Assembly: GCA_021372895.1 (NCBI GenBank)
Contig: JAJFTP010000097.1
Location: forward strand, 1-35,353
Source of the DNA: Synergistaceae bacterium
GTDB lineage: Bacteria > Synergistota > Synergistia > Synergistales > Synergistaceae
DNA length: 35,353 nt
Direction of reading: 5' to 3'
This document shows, piece by piece, positions 4,330-18,905 of the stretch. Made by a program: the position numbers and the translations under genes. Under the pieces are notes generated by a model, which searched no databases, was not told the DNA's origin, and saw only the letters and a program-made list of their open reading frames with translations. Every line of letters begins with the position of its first letter. The stretch's first letter is position 1.

Positions 4330-4349
4330 CGCCCGACAATACTATATAA

Positions 4350-4450
4350 ATCACAGGAGCAGGCGATGAGTCCGGAGATTTAGGACTTGTGGGGCTGGGC
4401 CGGGACGACAACCCGGCAACAGGCGTAAATATTACGGCCTGTGGGACCGT
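4350..4450 (+). ncRNA. NiCo (czcD-type) riboswitch aptamer
   Basis: The order of conserved blocks matches the published NiCo (czcD) riboswitch class. GAGCAGGC (4358-4365) is followed by a P2 stem (GAGTCC/GGACTT), the junction GGCTGGG, a P3 stem (CCGGG/CCCGG), CAACAG, a P4 stem (CAGGC/GCCTG), and GTGGGAC at 4441-4447. Outer stem P1 looks weak. The class binds Ni2+ or Co2+ cooperatively and switches metal-efflux genes on. Here the 3' half of P4 and the GTGGGAC block form the left arm of the following terminator, so metal binding and termination exclude each other. This predicts transcription read-through when the metal is bound. Identification is by eye; a covariance-model search for the NiCo family would confirm it. 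Confidence 0.87.
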
Positions 4451-4480
4451 TTAAGACGATCCCGCAGGCCGTATTTTCTT
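4434..4480 (+). terminator. Riboswitch expression platform: intrinsic terminator
   Basis: A 17-base arm at 4434-4450 pairs with 4456-4472 across a five-base loop, with two G-U pairs and no mismatch. A T-rich tract (ATTTTCTT, 4473-4480) follows. The left arm contains the GCCTGTGGGAC block that the aptamer needs. The structure is therefore a ligand-off terminator. Confidence 0.88.
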
Positions 4481-4509: not shown

Positions 4510-7017
4510 ATGATAAACGGAATAAACGGAAACAAACACTACGAAGGACTTACTTCCGAAGAGGTGATCGAACGCCGGCAGAAACACGGAAGGAACCAGC
4601 TTGAACAGGCAGAAAAGGCGAGCCTTCTGAAGACCGTCCTGAAATTTTTCTCAGAACCGGTTTTTCTGCTCCTGATAGGAGCCTCACTTATATATTTTGC
4701 CCTTGGAGAGCCGCGCGACGGTATTATCATGCTCACATTTGTCGCCTTTATGACGGGAATAAATCTCTATCAGGAATGGCGAACGGATAAAACTCTTGAA
4801 GCTCTGCGCAGCCTATCATCGCCAAAGGTCAAAGTTATACGGGATGGAAGGGAATCCACCATCGCTTCAGACGAACTTGTACCTGGTGATATCATGCTGC
4901 TTGCTGAAGGGGAGAGGATCCCGGCTGACGGAGAGATTCTTTTCTCTGACGGCTTTGGCGTGGACGAGTCCGCCCTGACAGGAGAGTCAGATATAGTATG
5001 GAAGGTCTCTGCCCCTTCGACGGAAACCGGATCTTACTGGAAATCGGATCACTGTTATATGGGTACAAACGTGATTGCAGGCCGTGCCGTCGTCCAAGTG
5101 ACAGCTACCGGTCCATCAACGGAATATGGGAAAATAGGCGCGGACGTAGCAAAAGCTCCCGACAGGCCGACGCCGCTTGAAAAACAAACAGGCAGACTTG
5201 TACGCAATTGTTCTTGCTTCAGCTTCGGCTTGATGCTGCTGGTCGTATGCGCCACTCTGCGTAACGGCAGCGGATTCGTAGACGCCGCACTTTCCGGAAT
5301 AACAATAGCGATGGCTACGATACCGGAAGAGTTTCCGGTCGTACTGACAGTATTTCTGGCCATGGGAGCATGGCGTATTGCACAGCGCAACGCCCTGATA
5401 CGGCGCATACCATCAGTTGAGACACTAGGGGCTGTAACTGTTCTGTGCGTAGACAAAACAGGTACTCTGACGCAGAACAGGATGGCTCTGCGTGAGCTCA
5501 TACCATTTCAAGAGAAGGAACTTTCGGAATTGCTGGAAGTTGCCGTTATGGCGTCTGAAACAAGTCCATACGACCCTATGGAGACCGCTTTTATTGAAAA
5601 AGCCGAGGACGAGGGCATAGATGTATCCCTACTTCAGGGACACGAGCTTGTGCATGAATATCCCTTCTCATCCGAGGCGCGCATGATGGGACACGTCTGG
5701 GCAGTCGGCAATGATTCAGTGCTCGCAGCAAAGGGATCGCCTGAAAATATTTTCCGGCTATGTATGCTTACAGAGGCGGAGGCACTGGATATTGCAGCTG
5801 AGCAGAAACGTCTTTCAGACCTCGGATGCCGGGTCCTTGCCGTAGCGGTCAACCGGTCGCTGGGCGACATACCCGAAAAACTTTCAGACTGCAGGCTGGA
5901 TCTTGTAGGCCTGGCTGCATTTATGGATCCTCCGAGGGAAACCGTTCCTGCCGCAATCGATGCCTGCCGGCATGCCGGCATACGAGTGGCGATGATAACA
6001 GGCGACAACAGTATGACAGCGCACAGGATCGCTCACGAGGTCGGACTGGATTCCGCCGGAGAGAAAGAACATCAGATAATAACCGGAGACGAACTGGATA
6101 CACTTGATGAGGACTCGCTTACAGAAAGGCTGAAGCACGTTACGATATTCTCTCGCATACTTCCAAGGCAGAAAATGCGCATAGTAACGGCGTTCAAGGC
6201 TGCAGGAGAAGTAGTGGCAATGACAGGCGACGGAGTAAACGATGCGTCGGCGCTTAAGTACGCCGACATCGGAATAGCGATGGGCGAGCGCGGAACGCAG
6301 GTCGCGCGCGAAGCCGCTGATATAGTGCTGCTCAACGACAACTTCACGACCATAGTGGACACGATCCGCGACGGGCGGCGTATCTACGACAACATCCGCA
6401 AGGCAATGGAATATATAATCGTCATCCACATACCCATTGCACTCTCGGCCCTTGCCGCGCCGCTTCTTGGCCTGCCTGCGCTGCTGCTGCCTATCCACGT
6501 GGTCCTGCTTGAACTGGTAATCGACCCAACGTGTTCAATAGTCTTTGAGCGTCAGCCTGCCGAACCTGACATAATGGAGAGACCCCCAAGACCGGTGAAT
6601 TCTTCCATAGTCACCAAAGACATTTTTATCAAAGGCCTGATACAGGGACTTGTGATATTCGTGGCAGTTTTCAGCGCATACTTATATACACTGCCTATCG
6701 AAGGCGCAGAGCACGCACGCACGTTCTTCCTGACGATACTGGTGCTCTCTAACCTGTTTCTGGTCTACGTGAACCAATCCAACACTGAATCAGCATTTAC
6801 AAACAAAAGCAGCAATTTCGACCCGGTACCGTGGATCATCAACTTTGCCATACTCGGAGGTCTTATACTGATATCCTCCGTCCCCACACTGGCTTCAATG
6901 GCAAAGGTCAAACCCCTGTCATTCAGGGATTTTGCTATTGCAGCGGCAATAGCAGCAGCCGCTACATTCTGGTGGGAAATTGTGAAGTTCTTGAAGCGAA
7001 GGACCGGACTGAATTGA
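4510..7017 (+). CDS. P2-type cation-transporting ATPase, probable Ni2+/Co2+ exporter
   Basis: An 835-residue P-type ATPase of the calcium-pump-like (P2) type. Visible parts are an N-terminal cation-ATPase domain (about 10-75), the actuator loop TGES (157-160), the membrane-4 motif PEEFP (272-276), the phosphorylation site DKTGTLT with Asp315, KGSPE (408-412), MITGDN (495-500) and the hinge GDGVND (573-578). Membrane segment 6 carries [13 protein letters not shown] (668-680). There is no CPC/SPC motif and no N-terminal metal-binding domain, so it is not a P1B metal pump. Database annotation would probably say calcium or generic cation pump. The NiCo riboswitch immediately upstream argues that it exports Ni2+ or Co2+, or responds to them. 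The start is supported by GGAGG at 4496-4500. Confidence 0.9.
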
Positions 7018-15575: not shown

Positions 15576-15604
15576 TTGACATATATACGTAAACTGCATA
15601 AAAT
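15576..15604 (+). promoter_or_regulatory. Promoter of the paaK-1 leader transcript
   Basis: TTGACA (15576-15581) and TAAAAT (15599-15604) are separated by 17 bases. Transcription should begin near 15611, about 34 bases before the leader-peptide start codon. Confidence 0.85.
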
Positions 15605-15644
15605 TACCCCCAACATACTGAAAGATGAAAGGAGACATCGGGAT

Positions 15645-15746
15645 ATGGCACATATAGCAATCAACATCGCAGTCTGTGGCACTGTCACGCGGTTCTCCTT
15701 TATCGGCGCGGGTCCCCTTCACGGGATCTGCGCTCGTGCTGCATAA
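15645..15746 (+). CDS. Leader peptide of paaK-1 (33 residues, Phe-Ser-Phe type)
   Basis: A short ORF of 33 codons plus TAA. It starts with ATG ten bases after AAAGGAG (15628-15634) and ends well before the terminator at 15797. It contains the triplet Phe-Ser-Phe at residues 17-19 (codons 15693-15701), followed by four residues, Pro24, two residues, and Gly27-Ile28. The same pattern with Tyr-Ser-Tyr occurs in the paaK-2 leader. Its 3' half encodes RNA arms 15706-15716 and 15723-15733. I infer a regulatory leader whose translation controls the downstream terminator. It has no resemblance to a known structural protein. Confidence 0.78.
   Translation: MAHIAINIAVCGTVTRFSFIGAGPLHGICARAA
15706..15733 (+). 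promoter_or_regulatory. paaK-1 attenuator: leader hairpin (arms 1 and 2)
   Basis: Arm 1 (15706-15716, GCGCGGGTCCC) pairs with arm 2 (15723-15733, GGGATCTGCGC) across a six-base loop, inside the leader ORF. Arm 1 is also perfectly complementary over 11 bases to 15800-15810, which includes part of the left arm of the terminator. Arm 1 begins five bases after the second Phe control codon. A ribosome stalled there would cover arm 1, and a ribosome at the stop codon would cover much of arm 2. Confidence 0.8.
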
Positions 15747-15796
15747 TTCGGGGTAGATAACCGAAACTCAGTATCGTTGCGTAAATTGCCGTTGAA

Positions 15797-15828
15797 GCAG
15801 GGACCCGCGCAGGGGCCCTGCTTTTTTT
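15797..15828 (+). terminator. paaK-1 attenuator: intrinsic terminator
   Basis: GCAGGG (15797-15802) pairs with CCCTGC (15816-15821), with possible further inner pairs, followed by seven T residues (15822-15828). The segment 15800-15810 can instead pair with leader arm 1, which would disrupt the stem. The paaK-1 start codon is 131 bases further on. Confidence 0.85.
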
Positions 15829-15959
15829 GTACCCGAAAGCAGGAAATACGGCACTGAAAATTTAAAAACTATAGACCTATATCCTCTGCTTGCATTCTAT
15901 TTCACTTGTTTTTAGAGAATGACGGAAACACTTACACTAATATATGAGGAGGAAAAAAC

Positions 15960-17225
15960 ATGGAACCTGTAATTCGCAATGTTGACACAAAAATCTCGAG
16001 GATACGCTACACACTGGAAAAGATGGTCGAGCGTTGCCACCCGTATGCACAGAAGATGAAGGATCTAGGAGTTAAACCTGAACATATAAAACCGGCCCGC
16101 GATATCCGCCTGCTCCCGTTCATGACAAAACAGGACCTTCAGCAGCACTATCCGCTCGGATGGCTGAACGTTGACCGTAAGAACGTAGTCCGTTTTCACG
16201 CTACCTCAGGCACGACCGGAAACCCTACCGTCGTCTGCTACACACAGAATGATATAAAAATGTGGGCGGAGAGCGGCGCATGGTGCCTCGGACTTGCCGG
16301 ACTGGACGAGTGGGACACTTTGCAGGTTTCCTACGGTTACGGCCTCTTCACAGGCGGGCTCGGTATGCACTACGCAGGGGAACGCCGCGGCCTTGCTGTG
16401 ATTCCCGCTTCAGGAGGTGCAACGGAAAAACAGGTGCATATGATAAAGGAACTTGGAGTCACCGCTCTGGCATGTACTCCCTCATATGCCCTTCGCATCT
16501 CGGAAGTATGGGACGACATTGACCCGGACCGTTTCTCAAACGGCGGCACAAAACTCAAGATAGGCATATTAGGGGCAGAACCCTGGTCGGAAGGACTGCG
16601 CAAACGTCTCGAAGAAAAGCTCGGCATAAAGGCTCTCGACATATACGGGCTCAGCGAAGCAATGGGGCCCGGAATTGCGATGGAATGTCTGCAGCAGAAC
16701 GGACTCCATTTCAACGAGGAAGCATTCTTCCCTGAAATAATAGACCCTGATACGGAGAAAAATATGGAAAACGGCGAGGAGGGCGAACTCGTACTTACTT
16801 CTATTAAGAAGGAAGCGTTTCCTCTGATCCGTTACCGCACGCATGACCGCACGCGTTTTCTGTCCGGACCTTGTCCCTGCGGTGATCCGAGCGTACGCAT
16901 AGGCAGGATCGGAGGGCGCACTGACGATATGCTCATAATAAGGGGCGTCAACGTATTCCCAACTCAGATCGAAGCGGCAATCTGCTGTGTAAAGGGGCTT
17001 ACCCCGAACTTCATTATAGACGCATGGAAGAAGGAAGGCATGGACGAAATATCCATAACATGCGAACGCGCCCTTGACAGCGATCCCGGCACAATCGAAC
17101 AGCTGGCTCAAAACATCAGGAAACGCCTCAAGGACAGCCTCGGCGTAAATGTCCCGTTCAAAATAGCGGAGCCTGAAACTCTCCCGCGCACAGAAGGAAA
17201 GGCTAAACATCTTGTAAGACATTAA
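15960..17225 (+). CDS. paaK: Phenylacetate-CoA ligase, copy 1
   Basis: A 421-residue adenylate-forming enzyme that activates phenylacetate, or a related aryl acid, to its CoA thioester with ATP. The ATP-binding loop is HATSGTTGNPTVV (80-92). YGLSEAMGPG (229-238), YRTHDRT (292-298) and the hinge region GRTDDMLIIRGVNVFPTQIE (319-338) are diagnostic of PaaK. A CPCGD cysteine pair (305-309) is typical of the family. A catalytic-type lysine lies near the C-terminus (KAKHLVRH). The start has GAGGAGG seven to eight bases upstream. It is controlled by the attenuator with Phe codons, suggesting phenylacetate from phenylalanine as substrate. A paralogue follows. Confidence 0.93.
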   Translation: MEPVIRNVDTKISRIRYTLEKMVERCHPYAQKMKDLGVKPEHIKPARDIRLLPFMTKQDLQQHYPLGWLNVDRKNVVRFHATSGTTGNPTVVCYTQNDIKMWAESGAWCLGLAGLDEWDTLQVSYGYGLFTGGLGMHYAGERRGLAVIPASGGATEKQVHMIKELGVTALACTPSYALRISEVWDDIDPDRFSNGGTKLKIGILGAEPWSEGLRKRLEEKLGIKALDIYGLSEAMGPGIAMECLQQNGLHFNEEAFFPEIIDPDTEKNMENGEEGELVLTSIKKEAFPLIRYRTHDRTRFLSGPCPCGDPSVRIGRIGGRTDDMLIIRGVNVFPTQIEAAICCVKGLTPNFIIDAWKKEGMDEISITCERALDSDPGTIEQLAQNIRKRLKDSLGVNVPFKIAEPETLPRTEGKAKHLVRH

Positions 17226-17374
17226 GATGCGCAATGCGGGACTTGCTTTTCCAATCAAGTAAATGCTGAATGATCAAAGGCACTAAGGATCATGGTAAAA
17301 ATATAGTATCCGCGCACCTGGCTTATAGCGAAAGCATGTATCAGCATTTCCTTAACAGTATTTTATGCAAAAGG

Positions 17375-17403
17375 TTGACACTTTACTTAGTAAGTGTTAT
17401 AAA
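17375..17403 (+). promoter_or_regulatory. Promoter of the paaK-2 leader transcript
   Basis: TTGACA (17375-17380) and TATAAA (17398-17403) have a 17-base spacer. The spacer carries an imperfect dyad, ACACTT...AAGTGT (17378-17397), with an inner TACTTAGTA. A DNA-binding regulator may therefore also act here. The paaK-1 promoter lacks this dyad. Confidence 0.85.
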
Positions 17404-17440
17404 TGGCGTCAATATCTTACAGGTAAAGGAGGCACTGGAC

Positions 17441-17539
17441 ATGAAAATTAAAAGCAGCACATTGATCCGCGCGATAGATCTTTCAGTCGCAGTGTACTCT
17501 TATGCTCACACGGATCCCCCTCGCGGGATCGGTGTCTGA
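17441..17539 (+). CDS. Leader peptide of paaK-2 (32 residues, Tyr-Ser-Tyr type)
   Basis: A 32-codon ORF plus TGA. It starts with ATG nine bases after a strong AAAGGAGG (17424-17431). Tyr-Ser-Tyr lies at residues 19-21 (codons 17495-17503), followed by four residues, Pro26, two residues, and Gly29-Ile30. This aligns without gaps with the Phe-Ser-Phe leader of paaK-1. A longer in-frame extension to 17270 lacks a ribosome binding site and lies upstream of the promoter, so the short form is preferred. The Tyr pair suggests that charged tRNA-Tyr is sensed. Confidence 0.8.
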   Translation: MKIKSSTLIRAIDLSVAVYSYAHTDPPRGIGV

Positions 17540-17564
17540 GGTGCCTGTGCACTGACAGCCGATC
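17508..17564 (+). promoter_or_regulatory. paaK-2 attenuator: mutually exclusive leader hairpins
   Basis: Arm 1 (17508-17518) pairs with arm 2 (17525-17535): GATCCC/GGGATC plus four outer pairs, with one G-G mismatch and a six-base loop. Arm 2 can instead pair with 17554-17564 (ten pairs and one bulge). Arm 1, through 17511-17519, can pair with 17576-17583 in the left arm of the terminator (eight pairs, one bulge). Arm 1 begins five bases after the second Tyr codon, the same spacing as in the paaK-1 leader. Confidence 0.8.
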
Positions 17565-17572
17565 AAAGTGAG

Positions 17573-17607
17573 GACGGGGTCCGTTATTGCGGACACCGTC
17601 TTTTTTT
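17573..17607 (+). terminator. paaK-2 attenuator: intrinsic terminator
   Basis: GACGG(G)GTCCG (17573-17583) pairs with CGGAC(A)CCGTC (17590-17600) with one internal mismatch. Seven T residues (17601-17607) follow. It lies between the leader peptide stop and the paaK-2 start codon 42 bases downstream. Confidence 0.92.
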
Positions 17608-17648
17608 ATGCTTAAAAACAGGGTTATAAAATATAGGGAGGAATTGCC

Positions 17649-18905
17649 ATGATACACAGCGAAAAAGCACCGGAAAAAATCTCTGAACTGCGCGCCGTTC
17701 TGGAGCGCCTTTGGACGCGCAACCATCCGTACACAGACAAAATGAAGGACGCCGGGATAAAACCCTCCGACATCAGGACCCCTAAGGACATACAGCTGCT
17801 TCCGTTCACCACAAAACAGGACCTTCAAAGCAACTACCCGCTGGGCTGGCTCGGCTGCGACAAGGATGACCTTATACGTTTTCACGCGACCTCAGGCACG
17901 ACCGGCAACCCGACCGTAGTCGGCTACACGGCTAACGACCTTTACTGGTGGAGAAAGGCGATGAAGACCGCATTCAGACGTGCGACACTTACATCCAAAG
18001 ATATCCTGCAGATATCGACAGGCTACGGTCTCTTCACCGGAAGCCAGGGATTCCACGACGCAGCGGAGGAAATGGGCGTCACGGTGATACCGGCAAGCGG
18101 GGGCTTTACCGAGCGCCAGTTCAAGCTTATGCGCGACCTGGGCACAACGGTCTTCACCTGCACGCCGTCATATGCGGTAAAACTCTGTGAGGTCTGGGAG
18201 ACTTTCTCCAAAGAGGACCGCTCGGAATATAAACTGCGCCTCGGCATATTCGGGGCTGAAGCGTGGTCGGAAAGTCTGCGTGAAAAGATACAGAACACGC
18301 TGGGAATTCCGGCAATCGACAGCTATGGGCTCAGCGAAGCGATGGGACCCGGCGTAGGTATGGAATGTCTTGAAAGGAACGGGATCCATCTCTTTGACGA
18401 AGGCTTCATATTTGAGATAATAGATCCCGTGACGCTTGAGCCCCTAGGTCCCGGAGAAGAGGGTGAGCTTGTCATCACCTCGCTTAAAAAAGAGGCGTTC
18501 CCTATAGTCCGCTACCGCACACGGGACCTCACAAGCATAATGCCGGAGCCATGCATGTGCGGCGACAGGAGTACCCGTATCACGAGGGTCAAGGGACGTT
18601 CAGATGATATGATAATCTTCCACGGCGTCAACGTCTTCCCTTCGATGGTCGAACGGGCGATTTGCAAAGTAAACGGACTAACCGCAAACTATCAGATAAA
18701 AGTCTGGGAGACAGAAGGGATCCAGCAGATGAGCGTATCCTGCGAACGAGCTCCGGAAACCACGGCAGAAGAGACAGAAAGGCTCGCAGAGGCGGGGAAA
18801 AAATCAATACACAACGCACTTGGGATCAACGTGCCACTCTCGGTCATCGATCCCGGAATGCTGCCCAGGTTTGAAGGGAAATCGAAACATATCATCAGGG
18901 AATAA
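17649..18905 (+). CDS. paaK: Phenylacetate-CoA ligase, copy 2
   Basis: A 418-residue paralogue of the preceding enzyme, clearly homologous along its whole length. TSGTTGNPTVVGYT (81-94), YGLSEAMGPG, RYRTRDLTS, CMCGD and GRSDDMIIFHGVNVFP are all present, as is a C-terminal KSKHIIRE. GGGAGGAA lies just before the ATG. The attenuator upstream has Tyr instead of Phe control codons. By inference this copy handles 4-hydroxyphenylacetate, derived from tyrosine, or another aryl acid. Direct substrate evidence is absent. Confidence 0.92.
   Translation: MIHSEKAPEKISELRAVLERLWTRNHPYTDKMKDAGIKPSDIRTPKDIQLLPFTTKQDLQSNYPLGWLGCDKDDLIRFHATSGTTGNPTVVGYTANDLYWWRKAMKTAFRRATLTSKDILQISTGYGLFTGSQGFHDAAEEMGVTVIPASGGFTERQFKLMRDLGTTVFTCTPSYAVKLCEVWETFSKEDRSEYKLRLGIFGAEAWSESLREKIQNTLGIPAIDSYGLSEAMGPGVGMECLERNGIHLFDEGFIFEIIDPVTLEPLGPGEEGELVITSLKKEAFPIVRYRTRDLTSIMPEPCMCGDRSTRITRVKGRSDDMIIFHGVNVFPSMVERAICKVNGLTANYQIKVWETEGIQQMSVSCERAPETTAEETERLAEAGKKSIHNALGINVPLSVIDPGMLPRFEGKSKHIIRE

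Follow-up and report, generated by a model that had tools for sequence, protein, structure and literature searches.

What would a short reading frame with clustered phenylalanine or tyrosine codons be doing in front of a gene for a phenylacetate-CoA ligase? The question is raised by a 35,353-nucleotide stretch of DNA from a Synergistaceae bacterium (contig JAJFTP010000097.1, positions 1 to 35,353 of the forward strand; hereafter the window), in which two paaK genes, copy 1 (15960-17225) and copy 2 (17649-18905), each lie behind a leader of the same design. A first-pass annotation, made from the letters alone, had proposed a translation-coupled attenuator on each gene. The analysis reported here leads us to the view that each leader is very probably a ribosome-mediated transcription attenuator of a route that would make phenylalanine (Phe) or tyrosine (Tyr) from aryl acids.

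The paaK leaders of the window and of its relatives

The two paaK genes and all elements of their leaders are on the plus strand. Upstream of copy 1, a consensus scan found a promoter with 11/12 matches (TTGACA-17 nt-TAAAAT, 15576-15604), which is followed by a 33-codon leader open reading frame (ORF) of the Phe type with a strong Shine-Dalgarno (SD) sequence (15645-15746; MAHIAINIAVCGTVTRFSFIGAGPLHGICARAA) that is kept in relatives. The putative control codons, Phe-Ser-Phe (TTC TCC TTT, 15693-15701), stand where relatives have FSF or FFF clusters and precede a predicted 12-bp hairpin with a six-base loop (15705-15716/15723-15734), whose 5' arm and loop make up arm A of the proposed antiterminator (15706-15721) and whose 3' arm is arm B (15723-15734). 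Arm C (15793-15810), the 3' arm of the antiterminator, overlaps the left arm of the intrinsic terminator (15795-15828 including the T run; hairpin 15795-15823) and pairs with arm A in a duplex of 16 bp (11 + 5 around a 2-nt bulge) with a predicted energy of -30.2 kcal/mol.

The promoter of leader 2 (TTGACA, 17375-17380; 17 nt; TATAAA, 17398-17403) was read from the sequence, the consensus scan having missed it because its -10 element ends in A. It is followed by a 32-codon leader ORF of the Tyr type (17441-17539; MKIKSSTLIRAIDLSVAVYSYAHTDPPRGIGV), also kept in relatives, with the putative control codons Tyr-Ser-Tyr (TAC TCT TAT, 17495-17503) at the place where relatives have YSY or YYY clusters. 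The hairpin predicted within this ORF again has a six-base loop (17505-17518/17525-17540); arm A spans 17510-17524, arm B 17525-17540, and arm C (17568-17584) overlaps the left arm of the terminator (17571-17607 including the T run; hairpin 17571-17602), the A:C duplex being 15 bp (9 + 6; -26.4 kcal/mol).

The 17-nt promoter spacers, the ORFs of 33 and 32 codons and the six-base-loop hairpins in the first-pass annotation were all recovered, and the predicted folds of both leaders were stronger than every dinucleotide shuffle (z -4.2 for leader 1 and -4.3 for leader 2). Its pairing of the terminator left arm with the hairpin arm also stood, but the numbers of pairs given (11 for copy 1; eight with one bulge for copy 2) were too low, since the loop of the hairpin joins in the pairing, with the 5' side of the terminator as its partner. 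The five bases that it had placed between the last control codon and the first hairpin arm did not hold up; the constant distance, shared by both copies, is 8 nt to the GGNCC arm. The control codons themselves differ, FSF (Phe) in copy 1 and YSY (Tyr) in copy 2. The annotation had judged it improbable that the design would occur twice by chance, and a blind scan of both strands of the 35-kb window for an SD sequence, a short ORF, an aromatic codon pair, a terminator and an A:C duplex of <= -16 kcal/mol agreed with this: exactly two sites were returned, the paaK leaders, and none was found in 12 dinucleotide shuffles of the window.

We then turned to relatives, in which absence of the leader ORF or of covariation would have counted against attenuation; both were present. 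PaaK1 was searched against 188 Synergistota genomes and the upstream regions were extracted. In 40 genomes, 58 paaK genes proved to have a leader ORF with an aromatic codon cluster, together with a terminator, a count that excludes one doubtful automatic call (L042). The clusters range from FSF and YSY up to FFFFF and YYYYY, and of the 56 leaders with a recognised GGNCC motif, 53 have exactly 8 nt between the end of the last control codon and arm A. The position of the stop codon (6 to 15 codons after arm A) and its distance to the terminator vary widely. Over 52 non-redundant leaders, the mean A:C duplex has 13.9 bp and an energy of -22.2 kcal/mol, and most positions of the helix, those in the hairpin loop included, occur as several pair types (compensatory changes), for example CUUCAC/GUGAAG at loop positions in L010 versus CUUCAG/CUGAAG in L072. 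When arm A was paired with the arm C of another leader, the mean energy was -17.7 kcal/mol compared with the cognate -22.2 kcal/mol, and none of 10,000 permutations, in which the tree was not modelled, reached the cognate value. The cognate advantage was also found within the Phe group, within the Tyr group and in 18 representatives less than 80% alike. The predicted antiterminator and terminator are mutually exclusive and backed by covariation, a putatively translatable leader ORF with a ribosome-binding site is present in both copies and in the 58 paaK leaders, and a cluster of codons for the presumed regulating amino acid holds a fixed place before the alternative structures.

Some further features of the locus were also noted. 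An inverted repeat, ACACTT-TACTTAGT-AAGTGT (17378-17397), lies within the spacer of the leader 2 promoter and is a possible operator. In the predicted fold of 15624-15706, the SD sequence of leader 1 (AAAGGAGA) pairs with its control codons (UCUCCUUU), and therefore leader 1 could occlude its own start once the first ribosome has gone by. The window, which is contig C97 of a 1.84-Mb genome that is 96% complete, also contains genes for a HAD hydrolase and hisC, and a NiCo riboswitch (4344-4451) upstream of a P-type ATPase gene (4510-7017). Near relatives identified by a one-protein contig scan are the Synergistaceae bacteria UBA6101, UBA1037, UBA1358 and OttesenSCG-928-D05.

Leader codons and the genes that they precede

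Both window proteins belong to the PaaK family by homology, matching solved PaaK structures with E values of 1e-101 and 1e-95. On a maximum-likelihood tree built from 67 PaaKs, 8 changes sufficed for the leader labels, compared with a mean of 30.9 in shuffles; mixed leaders had been labelled by hand before any tree was made, by the codons nearest arm A, and two rows (L026 and L031) were labelled 'none', with Phe leaders recognised in both afterwards. The Tyr-leader PaaKs form two clades, one of 19 members (support 99/97) and one of 5 (100/100), the second of which is nested with the Phe-leader PaaK1 lineage of the window genome; the Phe/Tyr split therefore arose at least twice. At W1 position 228, immediately N-terminal to the Tyr in the YGLSE motif, Ser is found in all 24 Tyr-type PaaKs and Ile or Val in all 27 Phe-type PaaKs; at W1 position 171, the same 24 have Thr and the same 27 Ala or Cys. 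In adenylate-forming enzymes, position 228 would be expected to border the acyl pocket. In a matched comparison, the second Tyr clade had 14 columns in which only the first Tyr clade agreed with it, and 4 in which only the neighbouring Phe clade did. Thus, as far as sequences can tell, the identity of the control codons tracks the PaaK subfamily, with copy 1 a predicted phenylacetate-CoA ligase of the Phe-leader subfamily and copy 2 a predicted 4-hydroxyphenylacetate-CoA ligase of the Tyr-leader subfamily. The proposal that Ser225 of PaaK2 is equivalent to Ser239 of 2-hydroxyisobutyryl-CoA ligase (PMC8388817) was also considered; the alignment does not support it.

In the proposed route, PaaK would activate the aryl acid to its CoA ester (phenylacetate for copy 1 and 4-hydroxyphenylacetate for copy 2), and the aryl-CoA would undergo reductive carboxylation by indolepyruvate:ferredoxin oxidoreductase (IOR), followed by a transaminase, to yield Phe or Tyr. 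The alpha subunit of IOR scores above the cut-off in 144 of the 188 genomes, and twice in the window genome, which has no prephenate dehydratase, prephenate dehydrogenase or chorismate synthase; the consistent reading is therefore that Phe and Tyr are synthesised from aryl acids. According to PMC4162585, which cites Porat et al., Methanococcus maripaludis makes aromatic amino acids from aryl acids via indolepyruvate oxidoreductase. A third PaaK homologue of the window genome follows iorAB without a leader of its own. An aromatic leader was sought on the iorAB-paaK3 operon (L094 4597-4630, L003) and none was found; immediately upstream of iorA is a strong hairpin that resembles a terminator.

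The same leader design (hereafter the chassis) is also found away from paaK. A covariance model was built from 28 leaders, none of them from the window, and run on the 188 genomes. It recovered both window leaders (E 6.2e-7 and 1.0e-8) and two further sites in the window genome, and gave matches in at least 102 of the 188 genomes, an incomplete census based on the best 20 candidates per genome. We inspected 40 further matches outside the paaK set, many gene names being read from translations. Those with an identified biosynthetic gene carried matching codons; for several others no gene was identified. Among the matches inspected, four to six Ile codons precede a subunit of a PorC-type 2-oxoacid:ferredoxin oxidoreductase in ten genomes besides the window genome and in the window genome itself, three to four Ile codons precede threonine dehydratase-like genes at three loci in other genera, and Val/Leu/Ile runs precede ilvN-like genes in the window genome and at nine other loci. 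The two further sites in the window genome are a six-Ile leader before a PorC-type operon (L178 437-1143; G000:C81:52036 onward) and a Val/Leu/Ile leader before ilvN, which is followed by ilvC-like and leuA-like genes (L179; G000:C64:33230-33326, minus strand). In the case of ilvN-ilvC-leuA, it is clear that the regulated genes serve the amino acids read by the leader. For PaaK, we infer the same from its subfamily, its residues and IOR.

When a threonine dehydratase query was searched against the window genome, nine matches were obtained, of which the best three had 26-31% identity. That Ile leaders stand on the PorC-type operon here and on threonine dehydratase elsewhere suggests that reductive carboxylation of propionyl-CoA would supply Ile; other anaerobes are known to use this route (PMC7476758). 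The chassis was also found before a sodium:solute symporter with Tyr/Phe codons (L182, L185), before a membrane protein without Pfam or NCBIfam match with Phe/Tyr/Trp codons (L183, L184, L189) and before another unassigned membrane protein with Tyr and Ile/Val codons (L187, L199), all of which are candidate amino-acid transporters whose substrates would be named by their leader codons. It should be noted that the shikimate operons of four relatives (L095, L096, L100, L102) also have aromatic-codon leaders and terminators, in an arrangement unlike the paaK chassis.

Proposed mechanism and sign of the response

Anatomy, conservation, spacing, covariation, the match of codons to PaaK subfamily and a chassis common with ilvN and threonine dehydratase all point, at the sequence level, to attenuation; ribosome stalling, the sign of the response, the substrates and the direction of the pathway are what we infer. 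RNA polymerase would start at the leader promoter, with a ribosome translating the leader ORF behind it. A lack of charged Phe-tRNA (copy 1) or Tyr-tRNA (copy 2) would stall the ribosome on the control codons, with arm A at or past its edge and the outer pairs of the A:B hairpin hindered; arm A would then pair with the emerging arm C, the terminator helix between arm C and the terminator right arm (arm D) would be blocked and paaK would be transcribed. With charged tRNA, the ribosome would cross arm A to the stop codon, arm A would be covered and then fold with arm B, and arm C would pair with arm D, ending transcription. Because the chassis is common with ilvN-ilvC-leuA and threonine dehydratase, a biosynthetic sign, in which starvation turns paaK on, is most likely. 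The fixed spacing of the control codons and the drifting position of the stop fit control by a stalled ribosome. In our modelling, a ribosome at the control codons left A:C intact, lowering it mainly when the last codon was in the A site, and a ribosome at the stop lowered A:C in most main-clade Tyr leaders and not in most others.

Several observations weigh against this reading. Modelling indicated that, when no ribosome is present, arm A often prefers arm C to arm B as long as arm D has yet to be made, and that a ribosome parked at the stop leaves arm A uncovered in many leaders; the off state would therefore depend on ribosome cover and folding kinetics. The window PaaKs score 444 and 412 bits against TIGR02155, the PaaK equivalog, and so fall short of the curated cut-off of 646 that would certify them as the paa-pathway enzyme. 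In several leaders of the Tyr clade, Phe codons stand alongside Tyr codons (e.g., FFFSFYYY), and an automatic count calls four of these leaders Phe. Finally, we asked whether paaK leaders go together with loss of prephenate dehydratase, prephenate dehydrogenase or chorismate synthase and found no such correlation, and leaders are also present in genomes with a full shikimate pathway; the route would therefore be a salvage route in many species.

The alternative that survives best is a catabolic switch of opposite sign, in which abundant Phe or Tyr would bring the ribosome to the stop codon, where it would mask arm B; arm A, left free, would then pair with arm C and paaK would be on. Many Synergistota are amino-acid fermenters, the stop lies 6-8 codons past arm A in many leaders, so that a terminating ribosome would cover arm B, and most Phe leaders keep A:C in the modelling when a ribosome is parked at the stop. 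However, the stop lies 12-15 codons after arm A in several leaders in which the control-codon spacing is unchanged, the stop-parked ribosome weakens A:C in most main-clade Tyr leaders, the chassis on ilvN-ilvC-leuA and threonine dehydratase carries the codons of their product, and PaaK forms AMP and works in the direction of activation. We therefore consider this switch improbable.

An arrest of the TnaC type, in which the nascent leader peptide would sense free Phe, Tyr or aryl acid in the ribosome tunnel, is less probable still and would be a surprise. It would account for the good conservation of the Phe leader peptide within Synergistaceae (RFSFxGAGPLHGICA) while the PaaKs differ. Across families, however, the peptide is free to vary both ahead of the codon cluster and past the GP motif, so that it is not conserved across relatives outside the codon run, and only that run and the RNA arms persist; the chassis also occurs with Ile and Val/Leu codons. 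Least probable of all is a ligand-binding riboswitch or a T-box with an accidental ORF, since, although amino-acid operons of other phyla often use T-boxes, no Rfam family matched the leaders at E values up to 10, bar one evident chance match, and codon identity, SD sequence, reading frame and codon-to-arm spacing are all conserved.

Meaning and comparison with known systems

Beyond attenuation of paaK by starvation for Phe or Tyr, we lean, with some reserve, towards a wider interpretation, in which one chassis has been reused across the phylum with its control codons swapped and the codons label the amino acid served. They would thereby uncover biosynthesis by reductive carboxylation in bacteria that ferment amino acids. 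Aryl acids would yield Phe and Tyr through paired PaaKs that have become specialised on two or more independent occasions, and propionyl-CoA would yield Ile through a 2-oxoacid:ferredoxin oxidoreductase under Ile attenuation, which replaces the Ile-attenuated threonine dehydratase of other genera. Leader codons would then offer a sequence-based assignment of substrate and pathway direction where homology alone fails, as with PaaK paralogues and 2-oxoacid:ferredoxin oxidoreductases. They predict that Synergistota aryl-CoA ligases are biosynthetic, with PaaK1 for Phe and PaaK2 for Tyr, and we further predict that the Ser/Thr pair marks specificity for 4-hydroxyphenylacetate.

The first-pass annotation knew of no attenuator on paaK genes, and neither such an attenuator nor such a chassis in Synergistota was found in the open literature, subscription papers and supplements being outside the search. 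The class of mechanism is old; the target and the phylum-wide variant are new. The E. coli-type trp, phe, his, thr, ilv and leu attenuators (Proteobacterial survey of Vitreschak et al., 2004, as cited in PMC9413887) likewise combine a leader ORF with codons for the product, alternative hairpins, an intrinsic terminator and biosynthetic logic. The leaders described here differ in that they precede the gene for an aryl-CoA ligase, in that their antiterminator arm is part of the ORF, begins 8 nt past the control codons and pairs directly with the terminator left arm, and in that a single chassis is used for Phe, Tyr, Ile and Val/Leu/Ile genes throughout the phylum. The His attenuators of the Bacillus cereus group, Eubacteriales and Erysipelotrichales, described by comparative genomics, also have leader codons followed by attenuator, antiterminator and terminator; in the available parts of that paper (PMC9413887), the his genes of Synergistetes are assigned to the HisR repressor, not to attenuators, and paaK is not treated. 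Upstream ORF (uORF) candidates on shikimate genes (PMC6429828) resemble the paaK leaders in being Phe/Tyr-rich and near a terminator, but concern other genes, not paaK. Similarly, uORFC-13-1 on aroF and uORFC-8-2 on cysS (PMC8632094) are Phe/Tyr-rich or Cys-containing uORFs near a terminator that belong to other phyla and genes, with no paaK among them. The closest likeness in metabolism is the M. maripaludis route (PMC4162585), which also uses aryl acids as precursors through indolepyruvate oxidoreductase; in contrast, the route proposed here is bacterial and would employ two dedicated AMP-forming PaaKs, each attenuated by its own product amino acid.

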